NCBI GenBank assembly: GCA_030431255.1
Contig: JAUIJL010000029.1
Span: 1 to 64,000, forward strand
Direction of reading: 5' to 3'
DNA from: Thermoanaerobaculia bacterium
GTDB lineage: Bacteria; Acidobacteriota; Thermoanaerobaculia; Multivoradales; J023
DNA: 64,000 nucleotides
Positions within the stretch are counted from its first letter, which is position 1. Every line of letters begins with the position of its first letter. Shown here in pieces: positions 1,456 through 31,251 of the stretch. Below the pieces are notes generated by a model, which ran no database searches, was not told the origin of the DNA, and saw only the letters and a list, made by a program, of their open reading frames with translations. A program made the position numbers and the translations under genes.

Positions 1456-3339
1456 TTAGATGTTGCTCCCGGCTTTGACGCCCAGGGCGGACAAGGCAAA
1501 TGTGTGGGGGTAGAGCTGCTCGAAATACCAGAGATTGGCGAAATAAAAACCGATCGGGGCGGGCCGTTCAAAGCGGTCCGAATCCCAGGCGGAAACCAGG
1601 AATCGTAGGCCTCGATCAATCGCCTGCGGCTCGCTGGGAGCGCCATTTCCCTCCAGAGCTGAGATCGCCAGGGCGGTTTCCTCTACCGAGGACACCAGGC
1701 CTTTGTCACCGCCCCAACCACCGTCGGCGTTTTGAGCGTCGAGCAGGTATTGCCGAGCCGGCTCGGCCCAGGGACGATGCTCGGGGTCGGTAAGAGCCCG
1801 CAAGACCCTGGCGGTGCCGAAGACTTTGTTTTCCCGCTCGGGGGCGTCTTCGTGGCCGAACCAAAGCGGTACCCAGGAGCCGTCGGACCGTTGCTCCCGT
1901 TGTAGATAGCGGAGCATGCGGGCGACACATCGATCCAGCTTGCGCACTGTGGATTCGGAGAGGTGGGGGCGCCAGGCTTGCAGGGCTCGCAAGGCGTGAC
2001 CGCTCAGATCCGGGGCGCTGCTGTCGAACGGCAGGCGCGTCCAACCCCGGCAAAATGTGGGCATGCCTCCGTCGCGATTTTGTAAATCGATCAACCATTG
2101 GACCGCGGCTTCCGCGGCCAGCTTATCCTCGGCGTCGATCGGTCCGGGCTGGTGTTGTGCCAAGTGGTGCAGCGCCAAAAGCGCGCCGGCGGTATCGTCC
2201 GCGTCCGGCACCCCACCCGGGAGGTCGGTCCAAGCCCAACCTCCGGGATCGGCGCCGGTAAAGGGATGCCGGGCCTTATATTGCTGATTCAACAACCAAG
2301 CGTGGATCCGCTGCCGCTCCGCTTCGGGGACGTCGACCAGCCGACCGCTGTCTCCCAGGGCCTGCACCGAAAGGGTCGTGACCCACGTGGCGAGATCGAT
2401 GTCGATCGGCCAAGCGCCGTCCGGACGCACGGAGTCGCGAAGGAATTGCAGGCATTTCCCCGTGACCGGGTGCTCGTCCAGATCGGCGCCGACCAAGCTC
2501 AGGGTGACGAAGGCGGTCAGCGGGATGGCCTCCAGGAATCCGCCGCTCGACGGCAGGATGGACTCCAAGCGTCGCAACGTGCCGGCGCGGCAGGCATTTC
2601 GAATCCCGCGGGCTAAGGGATTGCGCGAGGGATTGCGGTGATGCTGTACCTGGCCGACGGCGATCAAAGCGGGCAGGGCGTAGCTCACTACCGGCAGACC
2701 GAGAAATCGAAATAGGGATTGGGGGAAGATCGCGAGCTCGAAGGGCAGTGCCGGCGGGCCGTGCCAAGCTTCGGGCTCGGGGCCGAGAACCCCGGCCAAG
2801 GCGGCGAGGGTCAGGATCGGCACGGAAAAGGTTTTGTCGTTGCCGTACAGGGATTCGACGGTGCTTTTTAGGGCCTCCGGCTCGAGACTGCCGGCGCGTT
2901 CGCGGATCCAGTCCTCGGCGCGCCGAATAGCTTCTTGCCGAGATCTCGTCTCGGAGCCATCTGACCCCGTTCTGAGGGCCGGGGCTTTGAGCGCCGCCCA
3001 AGCCAGCAGGGTGGTCGGCAAGTTGGTGGCGCTGCGCACGGTGTCGCCCCAGCCGCCGTCTTCGTTGGCGTGGGCGGCGAGCCAGTCGAGCCCGCCCTCG
3101 ACCCACTCGCGATGTTTTTGGCCGCCTTGGGCCTGATCGAAATAGCCCAGGGCGAAGGCGGCGACCGCGGTGGACAGCGCACTGGAGGAGAGACGACCCC
3201 GCCAATGGCCCGCGGAATGTCGACGGCCGAGCAGATCTCGGCTCAGCTCGTCCCGCACCCGGCGGACGTCATGCTCCAAAGAAGCTTCGGGCGTGGCGCT
3301 CACCGCACCACCGGTGCCGGCAGCCACAGCCGAGCTCAC
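1456..3339 (-). CDS. Squalene-hopene-cyclase-like class II terpene cyclase
   Basis: 627 residues, close to the length of bacterial squalene-hopene cyclases. The class II cyclase acid motif appears as DADDTA near residue 377, where bacterial SHCs carry D-x-D-D-T-A. Several QW-type repeats are visible: 'NEDGGWGD', 'RPDGAWPI', 'NRDGGMPT', 'RSDGSWVPLWFG' and 'NADGGWGG'. The C-terminal 'FANLWYFEQLYP' also fits. It probably protonates and cyclises a polyprenyl substrate at the membrane. The GTG start overlaps the stop of the upstream prenyltransferase-like gene by 4 nt (GTGA), so the two are translationally coupled. No other hopanoid (hpn) genes are in the window. The substrate need not be squalene, because a polyprenyl synthase is encoded in the same operon. 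Confidence 0.85.
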   Translation of the reverse strand: MSSAVAAGTGGAVSATPEASLEHDVRRVRDELSRDLLGRRHSAGHWRGRLSSSALSTAVAAFALGYFDQAQGGQKHREWVEGGLDWLAAHANEDGGWGDTVRSATNLPTTLLAWAALKAPALRTGSDGSETRSRQEAIRRAEDWIRERAGSLEPEALKSTVESLYGNDKTFSVPILTLAALAGVLGPEPEAWHGPPALPFELAIFPQSLFRFLGLPVVSYALPALIAVGQVQHHRNPSRNPLARGIRNACRAGTLRRLESILPSSGGFLEAIPLTAFVTLSLVGADLDEHPVTGKCLQFLRDSVRPDGAWPIDIDLATWVTTLSVQALGDSGRLVDVPEAERQRIHAWLLNQQYKARHPFTGADPGGWAWTDLPGGVPDADDTAGALLALHHLAQHQPGPIDAEDKLAAEAAVQWLIDLQNRDGGMPTFCRGWTRLPFDSSAPDLSGHALRALQAWRPHLSESTVRKLDRCVARMLRYLQREQRSDGSWVPLWFGHEDAPERENKVFGTARVLRALTDPEHRPWAEPARQYLLDAQNADGGWGGDKGLVSSVEETALAISALEGNGAPSEPQAIDRGLRFLVSAWDSDRFERPAPIGFYFANLWYFEQLYPHTFALSALGVKAGSNI

Positions 3340-4232
3340 GAGCCGAGCACGCTCAGATGGCCGAGCGCCAGGAGGCCGTAGAAGGTGTACTCACAATCGA
3401 CGTCGTCGTCCGCCCAATGACCGTGGAACGCTCCCCGGTTGGTCCACAAGGAATCGACGAAGTCGAGGGTGGATTCCAAGTGATCGTCCGGCGGCTGACC
3501 CAAGGAGGAAAGCGCGTGCAGGGCGACGGCCGTCGACAGCAGATCCGGCATCGGGGCTCCTTCGGCCGCCAGGAATCCGCCCTGGCGATGCCGTCGTCGG
3601 CGGAGCCAAGAGACGGTTTGGGGATGCGCTTCGCCGCCGAGCCGACGCAGCATGACCGCCGCCGCCGCGGTGGTGGGCGTGGTGGCTACGGGCATGTCCG
3701 GGCTGGTGGCATAACCCCCATCGTCGAGGGCGTTGCGCAAGACGAAGTCGACGGTGGCTTCGGGATCGGGCATGGGAATGCCCAGATCCTCGTGGGCGCC
3801 GAGGGCGAGAAAGGTGCCGTAGACCGATCCGCCCGTTTCCTCTGGGGTGGCCGCCCAGCCACCGTCGTCCCGCTGGAACGACGCCAAATGCCGTCGCCAA
3901 GGGGTTTCTCCGTGGTCTTGGCTCGGATCGTAGAGGTCGGACTCCGTGAATGCTCTTATCCAGCAAGAGAAGTGCACCAAGTCCAATTCCGTGCCGTGTC
4001 CGTGTCGACGGACCAAGGGAGACATACGCTCCGGCGCCACGGGCATGTCCAACGCTTTACAGGCATCTAGGCCGAAGACCGTGTAGTAGAGGTCGCTCTC
4101 TCCGTCGCGATCGCCGAATCCTCCGTCGTCGGCGTAGCAGGTGAGCAGGAAATCTCGGACTAAGTCGGTCGCCTCACCCAGCAGCTGCGGTGACAACTTC
4201 GCCACCTGCAACATTTCGAGTCTCGTGCTCAC
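3336..4232 (-). CDS. Prenyltransferase/squalene-oxidase repeat protein, short alpha-toroid
   Basis: 298 residues made of alpha/alpha-toroid repeats: 'YADDGGFGDRDG', 'QRDDGGWAATPE', 'ALDDGGYATS' and 'RRHRQGGFLA'. The C-terminal 'DVDCEYTFYGLLALGHL' resembles the zinc-ligand end of protein prenyltransferase beta subunits. It lacks the DxDDTA acid motif of class II cyclases, so it may be a prenyl-binding partner or a transferase rather than a second cyclase. A GTG start at 4232 has a GAGGGG site 7 nt upstream and lies 59 nt inside the polyprenyl synthase gene; ATG 4214 is an alternative. Its stop overlaps the cyclase start. Confidence 0.7.
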   Translation of the reverse strand: MSTRLEMLQVAKLSPQLLGEATDLVRDFLLTCYADDGGFGDRDGESDLYYTVFGLDACKALDMPVAPERMSPLVRRHGHGTELDLVHFSCWIRAFTESDLYDPSQDHGETPWRRHLASFQRDDGGWAATPEETGGSVYGTFLALGAHEDLGIPMPDPEATVDFVLRNALDDGGYATSPDMPVATTPTTAAAAVMLRRLGGEAHPQTVSWLRRRRHRQGGFLAAEGAPMPDLLSTAVALHALSSLGQPPDDHLESTLDFVDSLWTNRGAFHGHWADDDVDCEYTFYGLLALGHLSVLGS

Positions 4233-5892
4233 TGCACCACCCCTCGATTTTCAATTCATCGAAGATTTTGCCGACAACCCTGCGCAACAAACCTTTGACA
4301 TTGGCGTTGTCGAGGCCGCGCAAGGAGCGGATCGCTTCGTCTTTGTAGGCCTGGTAGAGCTCGGTCGAGCGTTCCGTGGCTTCCAGGGATTCCAGCAATT
4401 GGTGGATGGCTTCCGCCTCACCACCCTGGATCCAAGCTTGGGTCACCGCCGCGCGCTGATCTTTTTTCGCGGTCTGATGGGCGATGGACCAAGGAATGGT
4501 CGGACGGACTTCCGGAGCCTCGCCGGCCTCGCGGGCCGCTTGCAGATCGTCGAGATCGTCGCGGATCTGATAGGCGACACCCAGGGCGTCGCTAAAAGCG
4601 TCGAGGGCCGTGTGCATGGGCTCGTCGGCACCGCCGAGCACGGCGCCGATGCGCAGGGCGGTGGAGAAGGCGGGCGCGGTTTTACCCCGGAAAATGGCCA
4701 CCACTTCTTGGGGACGCAAGGGTTTGGGGTTCTTGGTCCACATCAGCTCCTCGCCCTGGCCGACGGAGAGGGAGCGATGACCGGCCGCGGCCAAACGCAG
4801 CATCTCGGCGCGACGATTTGCCGGTGCGTCCGACTCCGCCAGCAGGCGATAGCCTTCGCCCAACAAGAAGTCGCCCAGGTTGAGGGCCACCGGCACGCCG
4901 TGGCTCTCGTGCAGCGTTTTGCCACCGTAGCGCTCGGTGTCGTCGTCCTCGATATCGTCGTGAATCAACGACGCCTTGTGGAAGCATTCGACGGAAATCG
5001 CCACCCGGCGAAGATCGTCGGTCAGCTCGTCGAAGGGCTGGGGCTCGTCGAGCAAGGCTTGGTAAACGGCCACGGTCAGGAACGGCCGCCAGCGCTTGCC
5101 GCCTTCCGCCAGCCACTTCTGCCCGAGCCTTTCGGTTTCCGTGCTCGGCTCGCCCAGGAGACGGGCCAGGGCGGCGGGCTCGAACCAGCTGTCGACCTCG
5201 TCACGCAGGCCGCCGAGATCGAGACGGCGGGTCCTGTCCTCGGAGGTCAGGTGCACGGAATCCCAGACCCAGTCGAGATCGACGTTGGTGTCGATGCAAT
5301 CGTCTTGCAGCAGGGGTAAGGCAATGCCGGGGATCGCCGCGGCCTCCATGTAGCCGTAGACCTTCTCCAGCACGTTCAGGCAGCTGACGCCGACGATCGC
5401 CTCGATCTGACCGGTTTCGATGATCGCCATGACGATGGGTGAGCCTTCGGCCACCAGCACCGCGTAACCCATGCGCTCCGCTTCTTCCTGCAGATCCTCG
5501 ATCGAGCACAAGCCGCATTTTTTGCACAGCAGCCCGAGCTCGTCGAACGGTGCCGGGCATTTATCCTCGACCCGCATGCACTTCGGCAGCAGCAACAGCC
5601 GACGCTCGAAGGGAATCGCGGCGAGGGAGTCACGCCACAGCTCGTTGTTGATGATCAGGGCAATGAATTCTTTGTGGGCCACATCGAAGCCGAAGCGATC
5701 GCAAATCACCTCGGCTTCCTGGCGCAGCTCGTCCATGGGCATGGGCGGAACCAGCTGAGAGCCGTCCAAATAGGTGCGAACTTTGCTCAACACCAAGTCG
5801 CGCTCGGCCTTGGTCGGCGGGATCTCCGGCTGAACCGGGCGATCCGGCCGCTCGTGCATGATCTTGGGCAATCCGACGATGGGAAGGCTCAT
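4174..5892 (-). CDS. DUF116 - trans-polyprenyl diphosphate synthase fusion
   Basis: 572 residues in two parts. Residues about 40-205 match DUF116: 'LLLPKCMR', a cysteine group 'CKKCGLCS', then 'GSPIVMAIIETG' and 'DDCIDTNVD'. Residues about 225-550 are an all-trans polyprenyl diphosphate synthase with the first Asp-rich motif DDIEDDD near residue 310 and the second RDDLDD near 441, which chelate Mg for chain elongation from allylic diphosphate and IPP. The polyprenyl synthase is normally a separate protein of 300-350 residues. The cysteines of the DUF116 part could hold an Fe-S cluster or zinc. An AGGAG site 8 nt before the ATG fixes the start. It presumably makes the isoprenoid used by the two downstream toroid proteins. 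Confidence 0.85.
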   Translation of the reverse strand: MSLPIVGLPKIMHERPDRPVQPEIPPTKAERDLVLSKVRTYLDGSQLVPPMPMDELRQEAEVICDRFGFDVAHKEFIALIINNELWRDSLAAIPFERRLLLLPKCMRVEDKCPAPFDELGLLCKKCGLCSIEDLQEEAERMGYAVLVAEGSPIVMAIIETGQIEAIVGVSCLNVLEKVYGYMEAAAIPGIALPLLQDDCIDTNVDLDWVWDSVHLTSEDRTRRLDLGGLRDEVDSWFEPAALARLLGEPSTETERLGQKWLAEGGKRWRPFLTVAVYQALLDEPQPFDELTDDLRRVAISVECFHKASLIHDDIEDDDTERYGGKTLHESHGVPVALNLGDFLLGEGYRLLAESDAPANRRAEMLRLAAAGHRSLSVGQGEELMWTKNPKPLRPQEVVAIFRGKTAPAFSTALRIGAVLGGADEPMHTALDAFSDALGVAYQIRDDLDDLQAAREAGEAPEVRPTIPWSIAHQTAKKDQRAAVTQAWIQGGEAEAIHQLLESLEATERSTELYQAYKDEAIRSLRGLDNANVKGLLRRVVGKIFDELKIEGWCSEHETRNVAGGEVVTAAAG

Positions 5893-5978
5893 GGGGACGA
5901 CTCCTGGCAGTGTGATGGGTTGGCGAAAAAAATGGGCGACAAAGCGAGCTCGGGTCCGACGAGATCGTCCTTCTGAAT

Positions 5979-6062
5979 GTAGGGTCGGGGCTTGCCCCCG
6001 ACCGTTTCCGCATCGGCTCGGCTTGGCCTCGCCTCACGGGCGGAGACAAGCCCCGCCCCTAC
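5979..6062. repeat. REPIN-like pair of inverted GC-rich hairpins
   Basis: Two hairpins lie in opposite orientation between the ferredoxin and polyprenyl-synthase genes. The first has stem GGTCGGGG/CCCCGACC (5983-6003) and the second GGGCGG/CCGCCC (6038-6058). They are flanked by GTAGGG at the left end and CCCTAC at the right, and the two ends are about 80% alike as inverted copies. This layout matches REP doublets spread by RAYT transposases. Only one copy is visible in this window. Confidence 0.6.
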
Positions 6063-6072
6063 GCTAGGAATC

Positions 6073-6939
6073 CTAGTTCTCATCCTCACCTCCCATGCGC
6101 GCTTCGGCCTTGGCGCGAATCGCTTCGGCGGTGGGTAGCTGGGCGAGCACATCGTCGGGAATGTCGAGCTGCTCCTTGAGCTTCGCCAGGCAGCGCTGGC
6201 GCTCTTTGAGGGCTCGATCCTCGTCGCGCTCCTTGGAAAAGCGAGAGGTCGCGTGAGTTGAGCGTTGACGCAACATGCTGTAGATGTCACCGCCCAGAAG
6301 CGACGAGATGTCGGTCTTCATCTTTTCCCGGGCCAGATCGGCGTCTTGAACTACGTCGCCGTTGATCGGACCGTTTTTGTATTTCGGGAAGAGGATCGCC
6401 ACCTCGGGGCACACCCGGGAACAAGCCGGACAATTGGTTTTGCACTTTTCCGGATGTTTGACGTCGATTTGTTTCTCGGCGTCGACGTCGTACACCCCGA
6501 AGAGGCAAAAGCTCAAGCATTGCATGCAGTTGGTGCAACGGTCGTAGTCGATGACCGGAAACCAGGGCTTCCACTCACCGGCCGGCTCGCCGTTCGCCTC
6601 GGTTTGGACGAGGCCCAGCACCGCCTCGTTTTCGAGCCCGGCGATGCCGCGGAAGCGGGCCTCGATATCGCCTTCGAGGGATTCGGTTTGCACCTCGCCG
6701 GGATGCTCGCCCTGGCGTAGCACCACCAAATCCTCGGCATCGTCCAACGGCGCCACGGGACCTTGACCGGCGCGGGTTACGGCCACCCCGGCTTCCAGCA
6801 GAGCCGACAGCACCTCGTAGCGACTTTCGTGGTCGACCTCGACATCGGTGGGGTCGAGAATCACCCGCTGTCGCTCCACCGTCATGGGATTGGAGCTCGG
6901 ACGATTCAAGCTCATGGGGTCGGGGGCGATCATGCTCAT
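6073..6939 (-). CDS. Two-[4Fe-4S] ferredoxin-like protein
   Basis: 288 residues with two cysteine sets: Cys135, 138, 141, 145 (CTNCMQCLSFC) and Cys166, 170, 173, 177 (CKTNCPACSRVC). Each is followed by a typical ferredoxin turn, so two [4Fe-4S] clusters are expected. The first 130 residues and the charged C-terminal 100 residues match no family I recognise. The ATG follows a strong AGGAGG site and overlaps the previous stop (ATGA). It probably delivers electrons to the radical SAM or HdrA-like partner in this operon. A 180-bp gap containing a REPIN-like element separates it from the downstream polyprenyl synthase gene, the only sizeable gap in the operon. Confidence 0.75.
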   Translation of the reverse strand: MSMIAPDPMSLNRPSSNPMTVERQRVILDPTDVEVDHESRYEVLSALLEAGVAVTRAGQGPVAPLDDAEDLVVLRQGEHPGEVQTESLEGDIEARFRGIAGLENEAVLGLVQTEANGEPAGEWKPWFPVIDYDRCTNCMQCLSFCLFGVYDVDAEKQIDVKHPEKCKTNCPACSRVCPEVAILFPKYKNGPINGDVVQDADLAREKMKTDISSLLGGDIYSMLRQRSTHATSRFSKERDEDRALKERQRCLAKLKEQLDIPDDVLAQLPTAEAIRAKAEARMGGEDEN

Positions 6940-7442
6940 GGAGAAACCTCCTCACTGGCGGTGGTCGCGGGCCGGTTGCCTTCTGCGGTTGGCGGTGCTG
7001 CGGTGGCGGAATCTGTTGCGGTCTCGGGCTCGGAGCCGTCCTCCTGGGGCTCGGGGTGGGGTGCCAGTCCCAAGTCGCCGAGGATCGACGCGGCGGAGTC
7101 GGCCCGCATGTTGTGGATCCGTACCCCGTCTTCCGCCAGGGGAGACTCCGCGGCGTGGAAGAGCCAGCGCACGGCGCGGGGGTAGCAGGCCACGATGTCG
7201 ACGTCCCCTTGGCCCGGGTCGGCGAGCTTTTTCAGGCTCGGGTCGCAGCGTGCGGCCAGCTCACAGAGGTCGGGCACGGCGTCGAAGGCGCGGCCGGACT
7301 CGGCCAAGGCTTTGAGCACCTCACCCTTGACGTCCTGGGGCACGACCCGGGAATACGCACAATGGCAATAGAGCAGGCGGTTGCCGCCGGAAGCTCCGGC
7401 GGCGTCCGCCGGAGCGGTGGTTGGATTCGTGGGATCGCTCAT
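6936..7442 (-). CDS. Small cysteine-rich protein resembling the HdrA N-terminal domain
   Basis: 168 residues. The pattern Cys26-His-Cys28 ('YCHCAYS'), Cys60, Cys66 and then 'DIVACYPRAVRWLF' with Cys86 resembles the N-terminal cluster-binding part of heterodisulfide reductase subunit A (CHCG ... C ... VVASCSPRxHE). No flavin-binding Rossmann motif is present, so this would be only that domain. The C-terminal 40 residues are acidic and Ala/Thr-rich, probably disordered. Its ATG overlaps the CobW stop (ATGA) and its stop overlaps the ferredoxin start. The HdrA likeness is inferred from the motif pattern, and the protein could be an unrelated Fe-S or Zn protein. Confidence 0.6.
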   Translation of the reverse strand: MSDPTNPTTAPADAAGASGGNRLLYCHCAYSRVVPQDVKGEVLKALAESGRAFDAVPDLCELAARCDPSLKKLADPGQGDVDIVACYPRAVRWLFHAAESPLAEDGVRIHNMRADSAASILGDLGLAPHPEPQEDGSEPETATDSATAAPPTAEGNRPATTASEEVSP

Positions 7443-8566
7443 AGGGTGCAGGCCTTCCCTTCGGCGTCGAGGCGATGGGTGGGTTGGGGAGGCGACGGCT
7501 CAAAGCATTCTACGTGGTCGAGGCTCAGCTCGGATCGTCGGTCGACCACCGCTTGCAGGGCTCGGCTGAGCTCTTCCGGGGCCGCCTCGGCCCGCAGATT
7601 GACCACCAGCTGACCGCCGGTCAGGGGCGCGTTCAAGCGCTCCGCGAGCTCGGGCACCACGTGCTCGCCGACGAAGTGGGCGATCGCCAAATCTCCCGGG
7701 CCGGAATCCGGAGCGAGGGTCATTTTCAGGTGCGCGACCTCGGCGGTTTGTAAGTGTCGGCGCAGCTCGTCGGCGATGTCACGGGTCCACGCGTTGCCGT
7801 CGATTTCTTCCGCCGAGTCCAGCCTTAGGGTGGCGTTGAGCCAGCCCAACAAGGCCTCACCCTCGGCGTAGACCTGGTAGTCCACCTCCATGGTGGGACC
7901 GGAGGGGATGGAACGGGTTTCGATGTATCTGAACCAGTCCTCAAGGCCATCGCCCTCTTGGGCCGAGACTTCGAAGATCTCCTTTTCCGGCCATCTTCGG
8001 CTCAGCTCCTCCCGCAATCGAGCCCGTTGCTCGGCGTCGATCATGTCGATTTTGTTGATCGCCAGCACGTGGGCTTCTTCCAGCTGCTTCAAGTAGACGT
8101 AGCTGACCTTCGGTGAGAATTTCCGGCCTTCCTCGAGCCCCAAGATCCTCGAGGCGCGGACTGGATCCATCAGCACGGTCAACGGCGCGACGTCGAATCG
8201 GTCGCCGTAGAGCCGTCGCAGGGGATAGCTGACCGTGGCCACCAGATCCGTGCAGCTGCCCACGGGCTCGGCGAGGAAAATGTCGGGGCGCTCGGTGGCG
8301 GTGAGCCTTTCGGCGGCATCGCGCAGGGAGTCGAAGCGGCAGCAGAAGCAGCCGCCGGCGATTTCCTCGACGGAGAATCCCTGGTGGCGCAATTTCTGGG
8401 TGTCCACCAACCCACGTCCTTGGTCGTTGGTGATCAGGCCGACTTTCAGCCCCTGGTCATGCAGCCGGCGCGCCAAGCGACCCACAGCAGTAGATTTGCC
8501 GGCCCCCAAGAAGCCGCCGATCATGACGTAGCGGGCGCGGTTCGAGGGTGTATCAGTCGAGCTCAC
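7439..8566 (-). CDS. CobW/COG0523-family GTPase (metallochaperone-like)
   Basis: 375 residues if started at the GTG at 8566, which has AGGAG 8 nt upstream; an ATG at 8590 would overlap the previous gene and lacks such a site. The G domain has Walker A 'GGFLGAGKST', the COG0523 metal-site motif GGCFCC (CxCC) about 50 residues later, 'AEPVGSC' and 'NKID'. The C-terminal half resembles the CobW C-terminal domain but with no long His stretch. Family members load Zn, Co or other metals onto client proteins using GTP. Clients here could be the radical SAM, HdrA-like or DUF116 proteins, which is inference from position. Confidence 0.8.
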   Translation of the reverse strand: MSSTDTPSNRARYVMIGGFLGAGKSTAVGRLARRLHDQGLKVGLITNDQGRGLVDTQKLRHQGFSVEEIAGGCFCCRFDSLRDAAERLTATERPDIFLAEPVGSCTDLVATVSYPLRRLYGDRFDVAPLTVLMDPVRASRILGLEEGRKFSPKVSYVYLKQLEEAHVLAINKIDMIDAEQRARLREELSRRWPEKEIFEVSAQEGDGLEDWFRYIETRSIPSGPTMEVDYQVYAEGEALLGWLNATLRLDSAEEIDGNAWTRDIADELRRHLQTAEVAHLKMTLAPDSGPGDLAIAHFVGEHVVPELAERLNAPLTGGQLVVNLRAEAAPEELSRALQAVVDRRSELSLDHVECFEPSPPQPTHRLDAEGKACTL

Positions 8567-8577
8567 AGGTGGTGCTC

Positions 8578-9045
8578 CTAAGATCGCCACGGCTGTTCTT
8601 CCATGGCATCGATGGTTTCTCCGAGTTTCTCCAAGTAGGCCTCGACACTGACGGTGTCCGGATCCGGCTCGCCGCGTACGGCGTAGAGCCAGCCTTCGCC
8701 GTAGGGATCTTTGCAGACCTTCTCGATATCTTCTAAAGCCACCGGGTTGAGGCCCAACAGCTCACCGGAAGCGACACAGAAGAGATCGGTCACGGCTTTC
8801 ATGCCTTCGATCCATCCGATGACGGTTCCGGTTTCCAAGGTGCTGCCGACCGGGCTTTCCACATCAAATTCCACGATCTCGCCGAGCATGCGCGTGGCGA
8901 AGTGGGTCAAACCGACCCGCCACTCCCCGGGCTCTTCCTCCGCCAACCAAAAATGGGCCAGGCTGTAGCGGTAGAGGCGGGGAAAGCGGGCGACGAATCG
9001 ATTGCGCTTGAAGCGAATCAGCTCTCCGGTGTCGGTCGGGCTCAT
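8578..9045 (-). CDS. GcvH-like lipoyl carrier protein
   Basis: 155 residues from the ATG at 9045, which overlaps the previous stop as ATGA; a second ATG at 9060 is in frame but badly placed for its ribosome site. The fold marks of glycine-cleavage H protein are present: 'VGLTHFATRMLGEI', the lipoylation segment 'WIEGMKAVTDLF' with the acceptor Lys at about position 83, and 'DPYGEGWL'. No gcvT or gcvP lies nearby, so this is probably not the glycine cleavage carrier. Comparable stand-alone GcvH-like proteins (LbpA) serve in Hdr-like sulfur oxidation. Here it sits between a cysteine desulfurase and a CobW GTPase. Confidence 0.8.
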   Translation of the reverse strand: MSPTDTGELIRFKRNRFVARFPRLYRYSLAHFWLAEEEPGEWRVGLTHFATRMLGEIVEFDVESPVGSTLETGTVIGWIEGMKAVTDLFCVASGELLGLNPVALEDIEKVCKDPYGEGWLYAVRGEPDPDTVSVEAYLEKLGETIDAMEEQPWRS

Positions 9046-10253
9046 GCCGGCACCCCGCATTCCTGACTGCGCGCGGGCATCCGCGCGGCGATCCGCGCCG
9101 CCGCCTGGATCCGAGATACCGCCAAGTCGATGTCTGCTTCCGTGGTTGAGCGGCCGATGCCGAATCGCAAGCTGTTGTCGGCGAGGTCTTTGGCACCGGG
9201 AAGGGCAGCCAAGACATAAGAGCCGTCCTGGCCGGCGGAGGAGCAGGCCGAGCCGCTGGAAATGGCTACATCCTCCAGCTGCTCGATCAAATCCCGGGAA
9301 TCGATGCCGGGCAGCGACACGTTGAGGTTATTCGGCAGGCGGTGGGTCAGGCAGCCGTTGACACGCAGATCGGGGAATGCTGTCGCCAGTCTCTGTTGAA
9401 GCCGTCGACGGAGCTCCAGGGCGCGGGCGCTGTCGTTCTCGCGGCGCTCGGCGATCAGATCGCACGCGACCCCGAGACCGACGATGCTCGGCACGTCGAG
9501 GGTGCCGGAGCGACGCCCGCGCTCGTGTCCACCGCCGTGCATCTGGGCTTGCAGCCGTGCCCGCGGTCGCGTTTTGCGCACGTAGAGAGCGCCGATACCT
9601 TTCGGGCCGTAGATCTTATGGCCTGAGATCGACATCAAATCGACCCCGGCGGCTTGAACGTCGCAATCTAAATAGGTCAGGGCTTGGGCGGCGTCGGTAT
9701 GAAGCAGCACCCCTTCGGCACGGCAGATGTCCGAAATCTCAGGGATGGGTTGCACGACGCCGATTTCGTTATTGGCCCACATGATCGACACCAGGGCCGT
9801 ATCGTGCCGGATGGCATCCGCAAGCTGGTCCGACTTCACCCGTCCATCCGCGTCCACCGTTAGGTAGGTGACCTCGAACCCCCGTCGCTCAAGCTCGGCG
9901 CAGGTGTCGAGCACCGCCTTATGCTCGGTTTGTTGGGTGATCACATGACGTCCTCGACGGGAGGCGTGCTCCATCACTCCCAGCAAGGCCAAGTTGTCGG
10001 CCTCGGTGGCGCCTGAGGTGAAGACGATTTCCGAGGGCTCGCAGCCCAATAGCTTGGCGACGGCCGCGCGCGCCTTTTCCACGTGGTCCGAGGCGGCTCG
10101 TCCCCAAGCGTGGCTGCTCGACGCATTGCCGAACGCGGAGGTGAAGAAAGGCAGCATGGCGTTGACCACCCGCGGGTCGCAGGGGGTTGTGGCGTGATGG
10201 TCGAGATATACCGCGCGCGAGTCGTTGGGTGTTGGCTCCGCTTTCGCGGTCAC
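9042..10253 (-). CDS. Cysteine desulfurase (NifS/IscS class)
   Basis: 403 residues of fold-type I PLP enzyme. 'YLDHHATTP' opens the protein, 'TSGATEADNLAL' binds the cofactor phosphate, 'EHKAVLDTC' follows, and the Schiff-base lysine lies in 'SGHKIYGPKG'. The catalytic cysteine loop 'SSGSACSS' is near residue 335, followed by 'SLRFGIGRSTTEADID'. It removes sulfur from cysteine as an enzyme-bound persulfide for Fe-S clusters or thio-products. The GTG start overlaps the radical SAM stop as GTGA with a GGGAG site. No iscU or iscA gene lies beside it, so it may serve this operon specifically. Confidence 0.9.
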   Translation of the reverse strand: MTAKAEPTPNDSRAVYLDHHATTPCDPRVVNAMLPFFTSAFGNASSSHAWGRAASDHVEKARAAVAKLLGCEPSEIVFTSGATEADNLALLGVMEHASRRGRHVITQQTEHKAVLDTCAELERRGFEVTYLTVDADGRVKSDQLADAIRHDTALVSIMWANNEIGVVQPIPEISDICRAEGVLLHTDAAQALTYLDCDVQAAGVDLMSISGHKIYGPKGIGALYVRKTRPRARLQAQMHGGGHERGRRSGTLDVPSIVGLGVACDLIAERRENDSARALELRRRLQQRLATAFPDLRVNGCLTHRLPNNLNVSLPGIDSRDLIEQLEDVAISSGSACSSAGQDGSYVLAALPGAKDLADNSLRFGIGRSTTEADIDLAVSRIQAAARIAARMPARSQECGVPA

Positions 10254-11506
10254 GAAATCGCTCCCATACCGAAGAAGACGTTCTTCTTGAGCAGGCGGTA
10301 GAACCAGAAGTCCTCAGCGATCTCCCGTCCGGGAAGATGATGGCTGTGGCGAGGGCTCAAGCCGTTGAGCTCGGTGAACGCGGAATCTCGACCGCTGTAG
10401 TCCTTGGCCCCGGCGTCACGGATGTAGTCGTGGAGCTCTTGGGGGTGCTCGAGAATCACGCAGCCGTTGGTGCGTTGCTTGACGAATTGTTGGAAGCCGC
10501 GCAGGAATTGGCTGTTGTTGAACGTGTCGTAGAGGTTTTCGCTCTCCTTGACGTTCTCCGCGGCAAAGGACAAGGCCGGGCAGATTTCGATCGAGCCCCG
10601 AGGGCCCACATGGTAACCGAGGCCCGTTGCCGCGGGGCAGAAGGCTTCGCCGTCGGCGGTCCAATAGGTGTCGATCAACAGGATGGGGTGCTTACGTCGT
10701 AGCTCCAACAAACGCCGCCTCATGCCGACCAGCTGGTCCTCGCTGACGCAATATTCGGTGTGGGGCTCGGGGCTCATGGGTCGGTACACGTAGTACCAGA
10801 GATACATGGCACCCTGATCGATGAAATGCCGCACGTATTCGTCGGACATGACCTCATGCATGTTGAGGGCGGTGGCGGTGGTCGCGTTGCCGAAGAAAAT
10901 CTTGGCCTTCTTGAGCCGCGCCATGCCTTCCATGGCCGCGTCCCAAACTCCCTCGCCGCGGCGTAAATCGTTCTGATCTTGAAAACCGTCGAGGCTGATC
11001 AGCGGGGTCACATTGCCGGCTCGCTTAAGTCGTTCGACGTTTTCCTCGGTGAACAACATGCCGTTGGTGATCACCTGGAAATAGCAATCGGAGTGGCGCT
11101 CGAACACGTCCCAAATGCCCTTGAAGAGGAAGGGCTCGCCTCCCAACAGGGTGTAGTAGTGGGACTTTTGCTTCTTGCCCTCGACGATCAGCCGGTCCAG
11201 ATCGGTGTCGTCGATGAAATGGGCCTGCCCTTCCTTTTCCACCCAACAACCGTGGCATCGAAGATTGCAGGTATTGGTCAGGGCGATGAAGAGAAAGGGC
11301 GGATAGAGCTCGTTGCGTTTCAGACGTTTCTTATAAGCCCGAATCGCCCAGGCACCCTTCCAAGCATAGAGGTGGGCCATCTTCCAGAGAATGCGGGGCG
11401 AGAGCTCGGTGCCGGCCCGCCACGCCATCTTGGCGAGCACGCCTTGCTCGCTGAGGAAGGAGCGTTGGGTCTCGGGGCGTGGGGGAGATTCAACGATGGC
11501 GTTCAT
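10250..11506 (-). CDS. Radical SAM protein with SPASM-like C-terminus
   Basis: 418 residues. The [4Fe-4S]/SAM motif CNLRCHGC lies near residues 77-84, followed by 'LLGGEPFL' and 'VITNGMLF' typical of the radical SAM barrel. A later 'EAFCPA...GSIEICPAL' region and a C-terminal Cys resemble the SPASM/twitch auxiliary-cluster area. It is the first gene of the nine-gene operon, with an AAGG site 8 nt before the ATG. The reaction is unknown. With polyprenyl synthase and cyclase genes downstream, a radical modification of an isoprenoid is plausible. The protein does not look like HpnH or a lipoyl synthase by its motifs. Confidence 0.8.
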   Translation of the reverse strand: MNAIVESPPRPETQRSFLSEQGVLAKMAWRAGTELSPRILWKMAHLYAWKGAWAIRAYKKRLKRNELYPPFLFIALTNTCNLRCHGCWVEKEGQAHFIDDTDLDRLIVEGKKQKSHYYTLLGGEPFLFKGIWDVFERHSDCYFQVITNGMLFTEENVERLKRAGNVTPLISLDGFQDQNDLRRGEGVWDAAMEGMARLKKAKIFFGNATTATALNMHEVMSDEYVRHFIDQGAMYLWYYVYRPMSPEPHTEYCVSEDQLVGMRRRLLELRRKHPILLIDTYWTADGEAFCPAATGLGYHVGPRGSIEICPALSFAAENVKESENLYDTFNNSQFLRGFQQFVKQRTNGCVILEHPQELHDYIRDAGAKDYSGRDSAFTELNGLSPRHSHHLPGREIAEDFWFYRLLKKNVFFGMGAIS

Positions 11507-12064
11507 GCTTTCGGACCTTTCTGGGGCAACCGCAAGGGATCAGGATCGCGTTCAAGTGACGTCCAAATGAGAGCTCGACAGATGTCGTCGGGGCAGATTC
11601 TATGCCAGGGAATTCAGGGAGTGGATTCGATTGCCGAATTTTTACCTCGAGGCAGCACGCTTTCGCGATGTGCCCGTGAGTACGAAAAAACGCATTGGGA
11701 GTTTCGAAAGGGGGAGAGGGAATCGGGCGGGAATACCCCTGGCCGCCGTGGACGGACGATAGACGGGGATATTCGGTCTCAGTGGATCGGCGGCTGTCGT
11801 CGCAGGGGAATCCATCCGGCTGTTGATGCCTCTCTTTTTGGCGTTCTTGTGTTTTGGTGATCCGAAAATACTGCATGATATGTAGAATTCGACATTCACT
11901 GATCAAGAATTGTGGATTCCTGTGGTGAATCGTCGTCATAAATGTGTCATTTGAGCGTGATTGTGGATTCACCTCGATTCGCTGTGCTAAGTTGGTCGCG
12001 GACGAGATCGCGCAATCGCCGCCGCTCGATTCAGAAGATCGATTTGGAAGATATTGGAGAAATC
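11507..12064. other. Divergent intergenic region between radical SAM operon and amtB
   Basis: 558 bp without a convincing gene; reading frames here are short and their codon use is not gene-like. The part from about 11855 to 12000 is clearly richer in A+T and should hold the amtB promoter. The left part should hold the promoter of the minus-strand operon. I see no -24/-12 sigma-54 promoter. Confidence 0.6.
11909..11970. promoter_or_regulatory. Pair of 11-bp direct repeats upstream of amtB
   Basis: ATTGTGGATTC occurs at 11909-11919 and again at 11960-11970, 51 bp apart, about five helical turns. They lie 95-155 bp before the amtB start in an A+T-rich stretch. The spacing on one face of the helix suggests a binding site for a regulator, but no protein is identified. 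Confidence 0.35.
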
Positions 12065-13387
12065 ATGGAAGAAGCTGTCGATAAGCTGGCCGACGTCGCT
12101 GCGGTGTCCGGTGCGGACACTGCTTGGATGATCGTGGCGACTGCTCTAGTGCTTTTGATGACCCCCGCCCTAGCCTTCTTCTACGGAGGGTTGGTTCGGC
12201 AAAAGAATGCCTTGAACACCATGATGATGTCCTTCGCCTCCTTGGGCGTGGTCGGTGTGCTTTGGGCGACCGTCGGTTATAGCTTGGCTTTCGCACCCGG
12301 CACGGATTTCATCGGTGGCTTGGACTACCTATTTCTCAGGGGCGTGGGCATGGAAGCGCAGGGCACGATTCCCCATCTGCTCTTCATGGTCTTCCAAGGG
12401 ACTTTCGCCATCATCACCGCCGCGTTGATTTCCGGAGCGGTCGCGGAGCGCATGCGCTTCGACGCCTATTTGGCGTTCATCTCGCTATGGATTCTCGGGG
12501 TCTATGCGCCGGTTTGTCATTGGGTCTGGGGCGGCGGCTGGCTAGCCAAGATGGGTGCGTTGGACTTCGCGGGCGGCACGGTGGTGCACGTCAACGCGGG
12601 AATCGCCGCGGTGGTCGCCGCCCGAATCGTCGGACCCAGGCGCGACTACGGGCGTCAGGCGATGCTGCCTCACAACGTGCCGTTCGTGCTGTTGGGAGCC
12701 GGCTTGCTGTGGTTCGGTTGGTTCGGATTCAACGCCGGCTCGGCCCTCGCTGCCGACGGATTGGCGGCGTTGGCGTTCGCCAACACCATGCTCGCGCCGG
12801 CGGCAGCCTTGGTGGTGTGGATGTTTTTGGATGTCCGAGCGACCGGCAGCACCACGGCGGTCGGCGCCGCTACGGGCATCGTGGTCGGGTTGGTGGCCAT
12901 TACTCCGGCGGCGGGATTCATCGGCCCGATGGCCGCCATCGCCTTGGGTGGCTTGGCCGCGGTGCCGTCGTATTTCGCCATCGCCAAGAGCCAAACTCAC
13001 AAGCTCGACGATTCCTTAGAGGTCGCCGCCGCCCATGGCCTCGGCGGCCTTGTTGGGGCGGTGCTGACCGGAGTGTTCGCTGCGTCGGCTTGGGGCGGCG
13101 CGACCGGCCTGCTGGCGGGCAACTTCAAGCAATTCGCGGTCCAAATCGTGGCTGTTCTGGCGGCCATGGTCTACAGCGGCTTGGTGTCTTGGGCCTTGCT
13201 GAAAGGGATTTCTATGGTCATTCCCCTGCGCGCCGACGAGAAATCCGAGCGCATCGGCCTGGACGTGCCCATGCACGGTGAGGAAGCCTACTCCCACGGT
13301 GACGGTGCTGTCTTGATCGCCCCGGAAGCCCTGGCCGGCGCATCTCCGGTGCCATTGGGTGTCCCCGCTTCAGAGCAAGCCGTCTGA
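12065..13387 (+). CDS. amtB: Ammonium transporter (Amt/MEP family)
   Basis: 440 residues from the ATG at 12065, preceded by GGAG at 12056-12059; an upstream in-frame ATG at 11942 would add 41 charged residues absent from the family. About eleven membrane helices are visible. Family marks include 'FFYGGLVRQKN', 'FQGTFAIITAALISGAVAER', 'HWVWGGGWL', 'GTVVHVNAG' and the pore-histidine segment 'AAAHGLGGLVGA'. It passes ammonium or ammonia across the inner membrane. A PII gene follows 188 bp downstream, the usual amtB-glnK pairing in which GlnK plugs the transporter. Its stop codon lies inside the 24-bp tandem repeat. Confidence 0.95.
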   Translation: MEEAVDKLADVAAVSGADTAWMIVATALVLLMTPALAFFYGGLVRQKNALNTMMMSFASLGVVGVLWATVGYSLAFAPGTDFIGGLDYLFLRGVGMEAQGTIPHLLFMVFQGTFAIITAALISGAVAERMRFDAYLAFISLWILGVYAPVCHWVWGGGWLAKMGALDFAGGTVVHVNAGIAAVVAARIVGPRRDYGRQAMLPHNVPFVLLGAGLLWFGWFGFNAGSALAADGLAALAFANTMLAPAAALVVWMFLDVRATGSTTAVGAATGIVVGLVAITPAAGFIGPMAAIALGGLAAVPSYFAIAKSQTHKLDDSLEVAAAHGLGGLVGAVLTGVFAASAWGGATGLLAGNFKQFAVQIVAVLAAMVYSGLVSWALLKGISMVIPLRADEKSERIGLDVPMHGEEAYSHGDGAVLIAPEALAGASPVPLGVPASEQAV

Positions 13388-13494
13388 GCTGCTCAGAGAG
13401 CAGCCGTCTGAGCTGCTCAGAGAGCAGCCGTTTGAGCTGCTCTGAGAGCAGCCGTTTGAGCTGCTCAGAGAGCAGCCGTCTGAGCTGCTGCCGG
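13375..13494. repeat. Five 24-bp tandem repeats forming serial hairpins
   Basis: The unit is AGCAGCCGTCTGAGCTGCTCAGAG with small changes, in copies at 13375, 13399, 13423, 13447 and 13471. Each junction can fold as GCTGCTC-aga-GAGCAGC. The first copy covers the last codons and stop of amtB, and the array fills most of the amtB-glnK gap. It may damp or stabilise read-through mRNA. There are no spacers, so it is not a CRISPR. Confidence 0.9.
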
Positions 13495-13575
13495 CAGCCG
13501 TCAGGGTCGAATCGCAAACGACGTTTTGAGGCTCTAGCTGAGCCGGAACAAGGGCCGAACATAAGGAATCCAGAT

Positions 13576-13959
13576 ATGAAGCTGATCACCGCCATTATTC
13601 GTCCGGAAAAGCTCAATGAGGTCTTGTCCGCGCTGTACGAGGTCGAGGTGCGCGGGCTGACCCTCACCCGATGTTTGGGGCACGGTGGAGAGATGGAAGC
13701 CGTCGAGACCTACCGAGGCTCCACGGTCAAGATGGGATTGGTGGAGAAAGTGAAATTGGAAATCGGCGTATCTGATGCATTTTTGGACGCGGCAATTTAT
13801 GCATGTATGCATAGCGCAAGGACTGGTGAGGTGGGAGACGGCAAGATTTTCGTCACCGATTTGGAGAAGGTGGTGAGAATTCGTACCGGCGAGCAGGACG
13901 AGTCGGCCGTCACCCCTTTGGCCGATCTCAGCGTGGAGGTGCAGGGTAGCGCGGCATAG
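13576..13959 (+). CDS. glnK: PII nitrogen regulatory protein, Tyr51 absent
   Basis: 127 residues, starting at ATG 13576 with AAGGA 8 nt before it. 'MKLITAIIRPEKLNEV' and the 'KVKLEIGVSD' core identify a PII trimer subunit, which senses ATP/ADP and 2-oxoglutarate and binds AmtB. The T-loop reads 'ETYRGSTVKMG': Tyr46-Arg47-Gly48 are kept, but position 51, the uridylylated tyrosine in enteric GlnB/GlnK, is Val. Control by GlnD-type uridylylation at that site is therefore not possible, and ligand binding alone may govern it. Position after amtB supports a GlnK role. I use glnK on context; it could equally be called glnB. Confidence 0.9.
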   Translation: MKLITAIIRPEKLNEVLSALYEVEVRGLTLTRCLGHGGEMEAVETYRGSTVKMGLVEKVKLEIGVSDAFLDAAIYACMHSARTGEVGDGKIFVTDLEKVVRIRTGEQDESAVTPLADLSVEVQGSAA

Positions 13960-14020
13960 GAAGTGATCTGAGCACCGGGTTTTTTGTACGGCTAGCTGGG
14001 ATAGGACCGCTTTGGACGGG

Positions 14021-14048
14021 CCCTTTCGTGCCTTCTGTCACGGAAGGG
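14021..14048 (+). terminator. Possible glnK terminator hairpin
   Basis: CCCTTTCGTG (14021-14030) pairs with CACGGAAGGG (14039-14048) with one G-T pair and an 8-nt loop. No U-tract follows, so Rho-independent termination is doubtful. Confidence 0.4.
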
Positions 14049-14207
14049 TCATGGGGGCTCGTCAGGTAGCGGCCTCAGGATTCCATTCGGCGACGATTGT
14101 CTGCGTTTCGCAATAAGAGAATTTTCGCCTTCCATTTATCCGTCCATGCGTATATGATGGTCACTGGTGTGCTCTCTTCCGAGATCGGGTCCGGAATCAT
14201 GAAGCTA

Positions 14208-14251
14208 GTCTTTATGAACATCGCGTTTATAAAGATGGTGGTCTTTATGAG
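14208..14251. promoter_or_regulatory. Three TCTTTATRA half-sites upstream of gltB
   Basis: GTCTTTATGA occurs at 14208-14217 and 14241-14250. An inverted variant, TTTATAAAGA, lies between them at 14226-14235. The cluster is about 105-145 bp before the gltB start. The direct-inverted-direct layout suggests an operator, with no regulator identified. Confidence 0.35.
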
Positions 14252-14354
14252 ATCCCAGGTTCGGAGCTCGACGAGCACGCAACTTCATTTCGCGTTTTTT
14301 TGAGCACGAGATATCCCATGATCTATTTCTGCGTGAAGCCAAGGAGGCTCATCC

Positions 14355-17300
14355 ATGTATATACAATCCAGCGAGGCCGGAAAGGCGGACGAGGCCCAGA
14401 CATACGACTCTGACTCCGATCAAGAACCCTCACAGCACCCCACGGGTTTGTGGGATCAACGCGAGCAAGATGCTTGCGGCATTGGTTTCATCGCCGATAT
14501 CCAGGGGCGTAAGAGCTACCGGGTGTTGAGAATGGCTTTGCAGGCCTTGGAGCGCCTCAGCCATCGGGGGGCGGTGGGTGCCGATGGTCGAACCTCTGAC
14601 GGCACGGGAGTTCTGACCCAGATCCCTTGGGGCCTGCTCAAACAGCGATTTCCTCAGTTGGCCGCCGAAGAGCCGGATATGGCGGTGGGGGTCTTCTTCC
14701 TACCGATCGAGGAGCCGGGCTCGGATTCGGTCAAAGAGCTCATCACCAAAACTTTTCGCCGCAGCGATCTGTCCATACTGGCCTGGGGCGCGGTGCCCAT
14801 CGATCCCGAGGTGTTGGGGCGAGACGCCCGCGAAACGTTGCCGCGCATCGTGCAGGTGGTGGTCGAGCGCCCCGCGGGCGTCGACCGAGGTGAGGCCTTT
14901 GAGCGCCGTCTGCTCTTGGCCCGCAAACGGCTCGAGCGCATGGCCCGCCGGCGCCGGCTCGACGACTTTGCCGTGGTGTCGTTGTCCCACCAGACCTTGG
15001 TCTATAAGTCCATGGCCATGGCGCGGGATCTCACCGATTTTTACCCCGATCTCGCCGATCCCGCCTTCGAGTCCGCCATCGCCCTATTCCACCAGCGTTT
15101 TTCCACCAATACCCGGCCGACGTGGCGCTTGGCGCAGCCGTTCCGCATGCTCGCCCACAACGGTGAGATCAATACCATCCAGGGAAATCTCAACTGGATG
15201 AAGACCCGAGAATCACAGCTGGAGAGTGAGATCTGGGGTGAGGATCTGACGGAGCTGATGCCGGTGCTCGATGAGCGAGCCTCCGACTCCGCCATGCTCG
15301 ACCAAGTGCTGGAGATGCTCTGCCTTTCGGGCCGCGATCCGCTGCACTCGATCATGATGTTGATGCCGGAGGCGGGCGCGCGGACGGAGTCCGGGCATGA
15401 CCCCGAGCTTCAAGCCTTTTACGACTACCACGCTGCCCTGATCGAGCCTTGGGACGGACCGGCGGCGGTGGTGCTGACGGATGGACGCACGGTGGCCGCC
15501 GCTTTGGATCGCAACGGCCTGCGTCCCCAACGGTTCTGGCGAACCGTCGACGATCTGCTGATCCTCGGATCGGAGGTCGGCATCGTCGATTTACCGGCGG
15601 GCTCGGTGGTGGAAAAAGGGCGATTGGGGCCGGGGCAGATGCTCGCGGTCGACACCGAGGCCGGAGCTTTATTGCGCAACGACCAGATCAAAAAGCAGGT
15701 CGCCGGTCGTAAGCCCTATAAAGAATGGCTCGATCAGCACCGGATCCATCCTCCGGAAATCGCGCCGGAGGAAACCGGGCCGACCGTGGATCCCGAGGTG
15801 CTCTTCCGGGCCCAGCAGACGTTCGGCTATACCAAAGAAGCTTTGGAGCGGATCTTGGATCCCATGCTCAGCTCCGGCAAGCCGCCGGTGGGGTCGATGG
15901 GTAACGACGCGCCCCTTTCGGTGCTCTCGCAGCAACCCCAGCTGCTCTACGGCTATTTCAAACAACGCTTCGCCCAGGTCACCAATCCGCCGATCGACCC
16001 GCTGCGCGAGCGTTTGGTGTTTTCTCTCGAATCCTTTGCCGGTGGTTGGTCGAATCTTCTCGCCGAGGAGCTTCCGGAGACCGCCCATGTGGTGCGTTTC
16101 AGCTTTCCGATCCTGACCGGCGCCCAATTCCAATGGCTGACCCAGCTGGACGACCCCAGCTTGCGCTGCACCACTTTGGACGCCACTTGGGCGGTGGAGG
16201 AAGATAAACAAGGCCTTCGCCAAGCCGTGGATCGGCTCGCGTTTCAGGCCGAGCAGGCCGCCCGGGCAGGGGTCAGCCTGATCGTGCTCTCGGATCGGCA
16301 GGTCGGCCCGGAACGAGCTCCGGTTCCCATGTTGTTGGCGACCTCCGCGGTCCATCACCATCTGGTGCGTTGCGGTCAGCGCATGAAGGTCTCTCTGATC
16401 TGCGATACCGCGGAGCCGCGGGAAGATCATCATTACGCTTGCCTGTTGGGATTCGGCGCCACCCTGATCCATCCTTATTTGGCCCTGGCCACGGTCAGGG
16501 ATCGAAGCGGCGAGCTCGGAGTGTCCCAAGCTACCGGGCTGGCGAACTATTTGCGGGCCTTGGAGCAAGGCCTGTTGAAAGCGCTATCCCGCTTGGGTGT
16601 GTGCCCGATGACCAGCTACCACGGCGCCCAGCTCTTCGAGATCCTCGGTCTCGACGAGGACGTGGTGGATCAATATTTCACCGGTACCCGCAGCCGGGTG
16701 GGAGGCGTCGGGCTCAAGACCCTGGCGGAGGACGTCCTCGAGGTCCATGCCCAGGCCTTCGGTCAGCCCGAGTCGGACCATTTCAAGCTGCTCGATCGCG
16801 GCTTCTTCCGATTCCGCAAGGGAGGCGAGCACCACGAGCTGCGGCCCAAAGTTTTTAAACATCTGCACAAGGCGGTAAGAACCGGCAGCCGCGAAGCCTT
16901 CGCGGAATATTCGTCCGCGGTGAGCCAAGCCCAGCCGGCTCGGCTGCGGGACCTGCTGGCGCCGAAAAGGGCCGACGAGGCGATTCCGCTGGCGGATATC
17001 GAGCCGATCGACGAGCTGGTCCGTCGATTCTGCTCGGCGGCGATGAGCATGGGGGCCTTGTCGAAGGAAGCCCATGAGGTGGTGGCGGTGGGCATGAATC
17101 GGCTCGGCGCGCGATCCAACTCCGGTGAGGGGGGAGAGCATGCGGCCCGCTTCGAGCCTTACGACACCGACGTGTCCGAGCAGAATTTCCTCGGCCACTG
17201 GCGTCCTTCGGAGGGGGATTGGGGCAATAGCGCCATCAAACAGGTGGCGTCGGGCCGATTCGGGGTGACGCCCGAATATCTGCGCTCGGCGCGGGAAATC

Positions 17301-31239: not shown

Positions 31240-31251
31240 GGCTTAGAGCAA

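Follow-up and report, generated by a model that had tools for sequence, protein, structure and literature searches.

What does a lipoyl carrier of the GcvH family do when its gene lies among sulfur and terpenoid genes? The lipoyl cofactor is known from the 2-oxoacid dehydrogenases and from glycine cleavage. A further role, in the sHdr pathway, has been described since 2018 (PMC6067878, PMC10332631). The gene that raises the question lies in a stretch of 64,000 nucleotides, called the window here, on contig C17 of a 10.19 Mb assembly. Its open reading frame runs from 8578 to 9045 on the minus strand, and the encoded protein (8581-9045, 155 amino acids; an alternative start is possible at 9060) is named GcvHL in this analysis. 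It is a GcvH-like protein, as the earlier note on this DNA had claimed: it scores 65.9 bits (E 4.1e-18) against Pfam GCV_H, whose cut-off is 22.2, and the best PDB match of its profile is a GcvH (3a8i_E, E 1e-19). The lipoyl lysine, Lys83, is invariant in all 15 GcvHL orthologues. The same holds for Glu80 and Gly94, at -3 and +11 of Lys83. Of the two marks that had been called intact, the lipoyl-lysine segment keeps its lysine throughout, but the C-terminal DPYGEGWL, present in the window protein, varies among the orthologues.

GcvHL belongs to a row of nine minus-strand genes, from 1456 to 11506, that form an operon of about 10 kb:

10250..11506, minus strand: radical SAM protein with CxxxCxxC and four further invariant Cys, SPASM/twitch-like by eye (PF04055, 1.5e-19; alignment, n=12)
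9042..10253, minus strand: IscS/NifS-like cysteine desulfurase (Aminotran_5, 2.4e-80; IscS model 467 bits, cut-off 643)
8578..9045, minus strand: GcvHL, GcvH-family lipoyl carrier (GCV_H; Lys83, Glu80 and Gly94 invariant)
7439..8590, minus strand: CobW/G3E GTPase with GGCFCC (PF02492, 2.6e-22; alignment, n=14)
6936..7442, minus strand: small cysteine protein with invariant C26, C28, C60 and C86 and a Rossmann/flavodoxin-like core (alignment, n=14; model; fold search)
6073..6939, minus strand: two-cluster ferredoxin with a conserved C-terminal tail (Fer4_10, 3e-6; alignment, n=14)
4174..5892, minus strand: DUF116 fused to a trans-polyprenyl diphosphate synthase, with DDIED and DDLDD (PF01976, 1.4e-35; PF00348, 1.2e-39)
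3336..4232, minus strand: alpha-alpha toroid with the fold of the Rab geranylgeranyltransferase beta subunit (PF00432, 1.8e-12; model; 3c72_B)
1456..3339, minus strand: squalene-hopene-cyclase-like class II terpene cyclase (PF13243, 6e-32; PDB 1gsz, 6.4e-33; alignment, n=12)

Five pairs of neighbours overlap by 4 nucleotides (radical SAM/desulfurase, desulfurase/GcvHL, CobW/small protein, small protein/ferredoxin and toroid/cyclase). The overlap is 13 nucleotides for GcvHL/CobW and, with the listed starts, 59 nucleotides for DUF116-synthase/toroid; the only gap in the operon, 180 nucleotides, separates the ferredoxin from the DUF116-synthase. Since these minus-strand genes overlap or adjoin one another, the nine look like one transcription unit. 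The earlier note had rightly placed GcvHL between the cysteine desulfurase and the CobW GTPase, and it had missed the rest of the operon, with its polyprenyl synthase, a protein of prenyltransferase fold and an enzyme resembling squalene cyclase. Elsewhere in the window, the opposite strand upstream of the operon (11942-19052, plus strand) encodes, as judged by eye from the ORF list, an ammonium transporter, a large glutamate synthase and a PII protein. Further along, a DUF4276 protein and an AAA_21 ATPase (30637-32454, minus strand), whose best PADLOC matches are HEC-01B and HEC-01A, are a candidate anti-phage system, and the next gene (32579-33913) is a PADLOC dGTPase match.

The gene set is conserved. 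All or most of its genes were found together in 15 genomes with seven family codes. A GcvHL search of 59 genomes returned some GcvH-family match in 57 and a close orthologue in seven, the window's genome included; identity is 61-65% in the other six, and the remaining genomes hold only canonical GcvH or weaker homologues. Five of these six near relatives have the nine genes arranged as in the window, L038 with a fusion gene that matched in two pieces, and the sixth, L035, shows the same arrangement up to the end of its contig within the toroid gene, with the cyclase out of view. At E <=1e-22, GcvHL was present in 10 of 396 phylum genomes; these include the window's genome and one congener, and the other eight carry five further family codes. 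The usual order at distant loci is desulfurase, GcvHL, CobW, small protein, ferredoxin, radical SAM, DUF116-synthase, toroid and cyclase. When these 396 genomes were searched with the small protein, the 10 genomes recovered were exactly those of GcvHL, as a raw count in which kinship is ignored. The small-protein profile was built from cluster loci and included the rows of 8 of these 10 genomes, so what is new here is that the remaining 386 lack a match.

Within the cluster, GcvHL and CobW are present at 15 of 15 loci and the small protein and ferredoxin at all 14 that can be judged. The radical SAM protein, the fusion and the toroid were each found at 13 of 14 loci, the cyclase at 12 of 13 and a nearby desulfurase at 12 of 15. 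No desulfurase match was obtained near the cluster in L053, L054 and L059. L053 has a distant desulfurase relative (27-30% identical) 5 kb away, and L054 (G291) runs into a contig end, its genes for the small protein, the radical SAM protein and DUF116 lying on C324. In L058 the desulfurase lies at the opposite end and the fusion gene matched in two pieces; L057 (G417) gave no cyclase match in the stretch examined. Six genes remain in L056 (G283): those for the desulfurase, GcvHL, CobW, the small protein, the ferredoxin and the cyclase. Its stretch yielded no gene for the radical SAM protein, the DUF116-synthase or the toroid, and no DUF116 or such radical SAM protein was found anywhere in the genome. 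This shows that the six can stay together without the synthase, the toroid and the radical SAM protein.

Mirror-tree distance correlations were mixed, from r -0.28 at distant loci to 0.93 over all loci. At distant loci the value was 0.13 for GcvHL and cyclase, and for the cyclase it was -0.11 with ferredoxin, 0.04 with radical SAM and -0.28 with the toroid. These mixed values add no strong support beyond synteny. A wider contig scan with GcvHL alone returned two loci, both in Thermoanaerobaculia MAGs. Among plasmid records the ferredoxin query gave no match; 309 matched the DUF116-synthase query, none over 80% of its length, and 50 matched the cyclase query, all below 60% identity. Viral contigs gave no match.

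The products of the Fe-S and sulfur genes keep conserved cysteines. The loop Cys of the desulfurase is present in 11 of 11 aligned sequences (the twelfth, L056, was omitted, its open frame being shorter than the match), and in the ferredoxin the eight cluster Cys and C250 are invariant over 14 rows. CxxxCxxC and four more Cys of the radical SAM protein are invariant over 12 rows, and its PDB matches are SkfB and BlsE. The small protein, with four invariant Cys in 14 rows and a model at pLDDT 81, has no Pfam or NCBIfam match, and no HdrA is among its PDB sequence matches up to E 5. Foldseek gave nothing at or below E 0.001 for it. Its fold match to the HdrA N-terminus (8rvy_A; Z 6.0, rmsd 4.1, 99 aligned) is tied with matches to unrelated Rossmann-like folds. 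The HdrA-like domain that had been reported two genes on from GcvHL is thus correctly positioned and weakly labelled. An HdrA-like nature of this protein finds no support in sequence, and its fold match falls within the range of common folds.

The polyprenyl synthase and the cyclase likewise retain their catalytic motifs. Both aspartate-rich motifs of the polyprenyl synthase and its fusion to DUF116 are kept in 11 of 11 rows (L038 and L058, with matches in pieces, were omitted). D379, D381 and D382 of the cyclase DxDD, which reads DADDT in the window protein, are invariant over 12 rows. PF00494 (squalene/phytoene synthase) was found in 11 of the 15 cluster genomes, one of which, G283, has two such genes and may feed its cyclase another way. 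No PF00494 match was obtained in G134, G232, G291 and G314, which are 96, 99, 80 and 91% complete, so the cyclase in these four probably does not use squalene. At least some hosts would then offer it another substrate, the simplest candidate being the product of the synthase.

The toroid protein (298 amino acids; model pLDDT 93) matches the Rab geranylgeranyltransferase beta subunit 3c72_B with Z 26.1, rmsd 2.8 and 266 aligned residues. Protein prenyltransferases bind zinc through Asp, Cys and His. At the corresponding positions, with the register set by eye, the toroid protein keeps Asp230 and has Leu232 for the Cys and Tyr282 for the His in 12 of 12 rows. Zinc-dependent S-prenylation, which the fold had suggested, was set aside; with two of the three ligands replaced, protein-prenyltransferase chemistry is unlikely here.

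Is the arm of GcvHL lipoylated? For the lipoylation of H proteins, a Glu three residues before the lysine and a Gly eleven residues after it matter, and both are invariant in GcvHL. LipA scores above its cut-off in 14 of the 15 cluster genomes, the exception being G283, although that assembly is 96% complete; LplA-B_cat was also found in 14, with G006 as the exception. The earlier note had suggested a search of the genome for a lipoate ligase, and the window's genome does encode an LplA-B_cat protein, on contig C35 together with LipA. An LplA-type gene directly adjoins the cluster in 3 of 15 genomes (G254, G359 and G417), divergent from the desulfurase. The motif RRxSGGGAVV and a Lys conserved within KxxGxAQ are common to the three adjoining ligase-like proteins, which score highest against lipoate-protein ligase, with 70, 88 and 103 bits where the cut-off is 280. 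The presence of this lipoate-ligase-like gene beside some clusters is the strongest indirect sign that GcvHL is lipoylated, as it probably is.

We favour, with a probability of roughly 40%, the reading that the lipoyl arm of GcvHL carries sulfur or thiols during the synthesis of a cyclised terpenoid, which may itself contain sulfur. GcvHL would then be a lipoyl carrier that left glycine cleavage and joined a cyclised-terpenoid pathway. Lys83 would be lipoylated by LipB/LipA-type enzymes or, in some genomes, by a dedicated ligase, and the desulfurase would hand sulfane sulfur to the reduced lipoyl arm. Electrons could come from the ferredoxin and the small cysteine protein, and a metal from CobW. 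The DUF116-polyprenyl synthase, with its motifs intact, would supply the linear prenyl diphosphate; the radical SAM protein, the prenyltransferase-fold protein or both would link the prenyl chain to sulfur, and ring closure would fall to the class II cyclase. A more explicit version, which we consider rather unlikely, makes GcvHL the sulfur donor: sulfur would pass from cysteine over the dihydrolipoyl arm to a polyprenyl chain closed by the class II cyclase. In Acidobacteriota, and perhaps in Planctomycetota, the product would then be a lipid or cofactor of thio-terpenoid type.

Sulfur carriage rests on the desulfurase, the least constant member of the cluster (12 of 15 loci), and a redox role for the arm therefore follows close behind, as a possible though somewhat unlikely alternative. 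GcvHL would here be a dithiol/disulfide shuttle: the ferredoxin and the small protein would reduce the lipoyl disulfide, and the arm would in turn reduce the radical SAM protein or another partner. In this reading the desulfurase may do no more than serve Fe-S assembly, and several Fe-S proteins encoded in one operon do need clusters. The ferredoxin and the small protein with its four invariant Cys accompany GcvHL without exception (14 of 14 loci that can be judged), a steadier association than that of the desulfurase. The weak resemblance of the small protein to the HdrA N-terminal fold would fit as well, but it is matched by unrelated folds, and the Pfam scan of the nine proteins found no flavoprotein or CCG-type disulfide reductase.

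Improbable, in our judgement, is that GcvHL carries a substrate in the manner of an acyl carrier protein, with an octanoyl/lipoyl chain or a prenyl group modified on the arm. A radical SAM protein with extra Cys, whose nearest solved relatives modify peptides and sugars, would suit such chemistry, and so would the ligase-like gene adjoining 3 of 15 clusters. However, the lipoylation determinants of GcvHL are those of a standard arm, and no thioesterase, acyltransferase or LipA family match was found among the nine proteins (for the radical SAM protein, among the best 25 of 52 NCBIfam matches).

There is very little to recommend GcvHL as a spare H protein of glycine cleavage. Its best matches, Pfam GCV_H and GcvH entries of the PDB, do point that way, but all four NCBIfam models that it matches stay below their cut-offs: NF002270 (78 bits, cut-off 117), TIGR00527 gcvH (64, cut-off 116), not_gcvH (38, cut-off 144) and GcvH_rel_desulf (28, cut-off 150). 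In contrast, the same genome holds a canonical GcvH (154 bits) adjoining gcvT, and this GcvH exceeds the NCBIfam GcvH cut-offs (116 and 117) with 154 and 168 bits. The GcvT of the genome (411 amino acids) is above the gcvT cut-off, and gcvP lies outside the window's contig, on C23. The genome thus has its P, T and H proteins apart from GcvHL. A third weak GCV_H match in this genome (C48:77549-77731, 25 bits) lies within a 626-amino-acid frame. The window has no gcvT or gcvP, as had been noted: a tblastn search with the GcvT of this genome yielded no more than a match of 16 residues (E 0.23).

A tree of 47 GcvH-family proteins (15 GcvHL, 24 canonical GcvH, four LbpA whose genes lie in sHdr clusters of the same order and four other homologues) resolves GcvHL as a single clade with support 100/99 and a stem of 1.72 changes per column. 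Canonical GcvH (91/90) and LbpA (95/88) form clades of their own. The split of LbpA from GcvH plus GcvHL (92/82) carries a long-branch warning and does not decide whether GcvHL is nearer to GcvH or to LbpA, as long branches leave the deeper order unsettled. The phylogeny proposed in the earlier note, with GcvH and LbpA as references, puts GcvHL outside canonical GcvH and also apart from LbpA. The outcome that the note had named as refuting its claim, GcvHL nested in canonical GcvH and no second gcvH in the genome, did not occur: GcvHL forms a separate clade, and a canonical gcvH-gcvT pair and a gcvP lie elsewhere. We reject membership in canonical GcvH on tree, cut-offs and gene content. GcvHL is a GcvH-family protein with a lipoyl lysine and is not the cell's glycine-cleavage H protein, and its neighbours and separate clade bear out the description of a lipoyl-carrier homologue that adjoins sulfur genes outside glycine cleavage. 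Within the GcvHL clade, G025 (family f5) falls among f1 members, and the two members of f56 do not pair as sisters, a branching that hints at transfer between families. In a different setting, L088 (G026:C119) has two very divergent GcvH-like matches near ferredoxin- and NrfD-like genes (by eye), and this may be another use of a lipoyl-type domain.

The gene set had also been likened to the LbpA/sHdr sulfur pathway, while its lack of sHdr subunits was pointed out. The latter is correct: Pfam and NCBIfam scans found none among the nine cluster genes. The kinship is not borne out. LbpA has two strictly conserved Cys, near its N- and C-terminus, which are absent in some archaeal LbpA (PMC6067878). 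These two Cys are present in 4 of 4 LbpA compared and absent from 15 of 15 GcvHL read from the nearest start to the stop; three of the 15 lack Cys altogether. In the same order, sHdr-LbpA clusters occur at L090, L091, L092 and L093 (genomes G054, G046, G025 and G016). The LbpA neighbours at these loci were identified by eye, and an additional scan of L092 found HdrA-, HdrB- and CCG-type proteins and a ligase. Two LbpA of this order score 117 and 110 bits against GCV_H, versus 66 for GcvHL. That GcvHL is the LbpA of a reduced sHdr sulfur-oxidation pathway, for which a GcvH homologue adjoining sulfur genes and the presence of sHdr in relatives might be cited, deserves almost no credence given the separate clade, the missing LbpA cysteines, the gene content and a genome, G025, that carries an sHdr-LbpA cluster (L092) as well as the terpene-cyclase cluster (L037). 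We reject membership of GcvHL in LbpA on tree, cysteines and gene content.

Returning to the favoured reading, a sulfur or thiol carrier in terpenoid synthesis, we know of no described role of lipoate in the biosynthesis of lipids or natural products. A search of the open-access literature, preprints apart, found no description of this cluster among the matches listed. Judged by its genes, the conserved operon joins sulfur/Fe-S functions with terpenoid functions in Acidobacteriota and suggests a possibly new use of lipoic acid. It also places DUF116, a Cys-rich domain of unknown function, in a defined gene context.

Several parts of the operon resemble systems that are already named. The cyclase is like squalene-hopene cyclase in its PDB match (1gsz, E 6.4e-33) and its DxDD, and it stays below the SHC cut-off (83 of 431 bits). 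The toroid protein shares its fold with the Rab geranylgeranyltransferase beta subunit and differs in two of three zinc ligands. A fusion of DUF116 and polyprenyl synthetase has been named for Psta_0175 of Pirellula staleyi (PMC5898192), the same domain fusion as in the window's DUF116-polyprenyl synthase. Where that paper turns to DUF116, it predicts a flavodoxin-like domain with at least six conserved Cys and proposes electron transfer, and its passage on Psta_0175 makes no mention of a lipoyl carrier, desulfurase or cyclase (PMC5898192). By its name, NF045810 GcvH_rel_desulf describes a GcvH-related protein linked with a desulfurase, as GcvHL is, but GcvHL lies far below its cut-off (27.8 bits versus 150). 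At E 1e-20 this model matched 0 of 396 phylum genomes and also no control genome, which makes the count uninformative. With the GcvH of glycine cleavage GcvHL shares the family and the lipoyl lysine; unlike GcvH, it falls below the NCBIfam GcvH cut-offs, forms its own clade, has no gcvT or gcvP in the window and reads EG[FML]KA where the genome's canonical GcvH has ESVKA. Like LbpA, GcvHL is a GcvH homologue outside glycine cleavage, in a neighbourhood of sulfur genes and with a ligase adjoining some clusters; unlike LbpA, it lacks the N- and C-terminal Cys, has no shdr genes beside it and belongs to a separate clade. If the favoured reading is true, GcvHL would be a third branch of the H-protein family, tied to an Fe-S/sulfur module and a terpene cyclase, and thereby a new role for lipoate.
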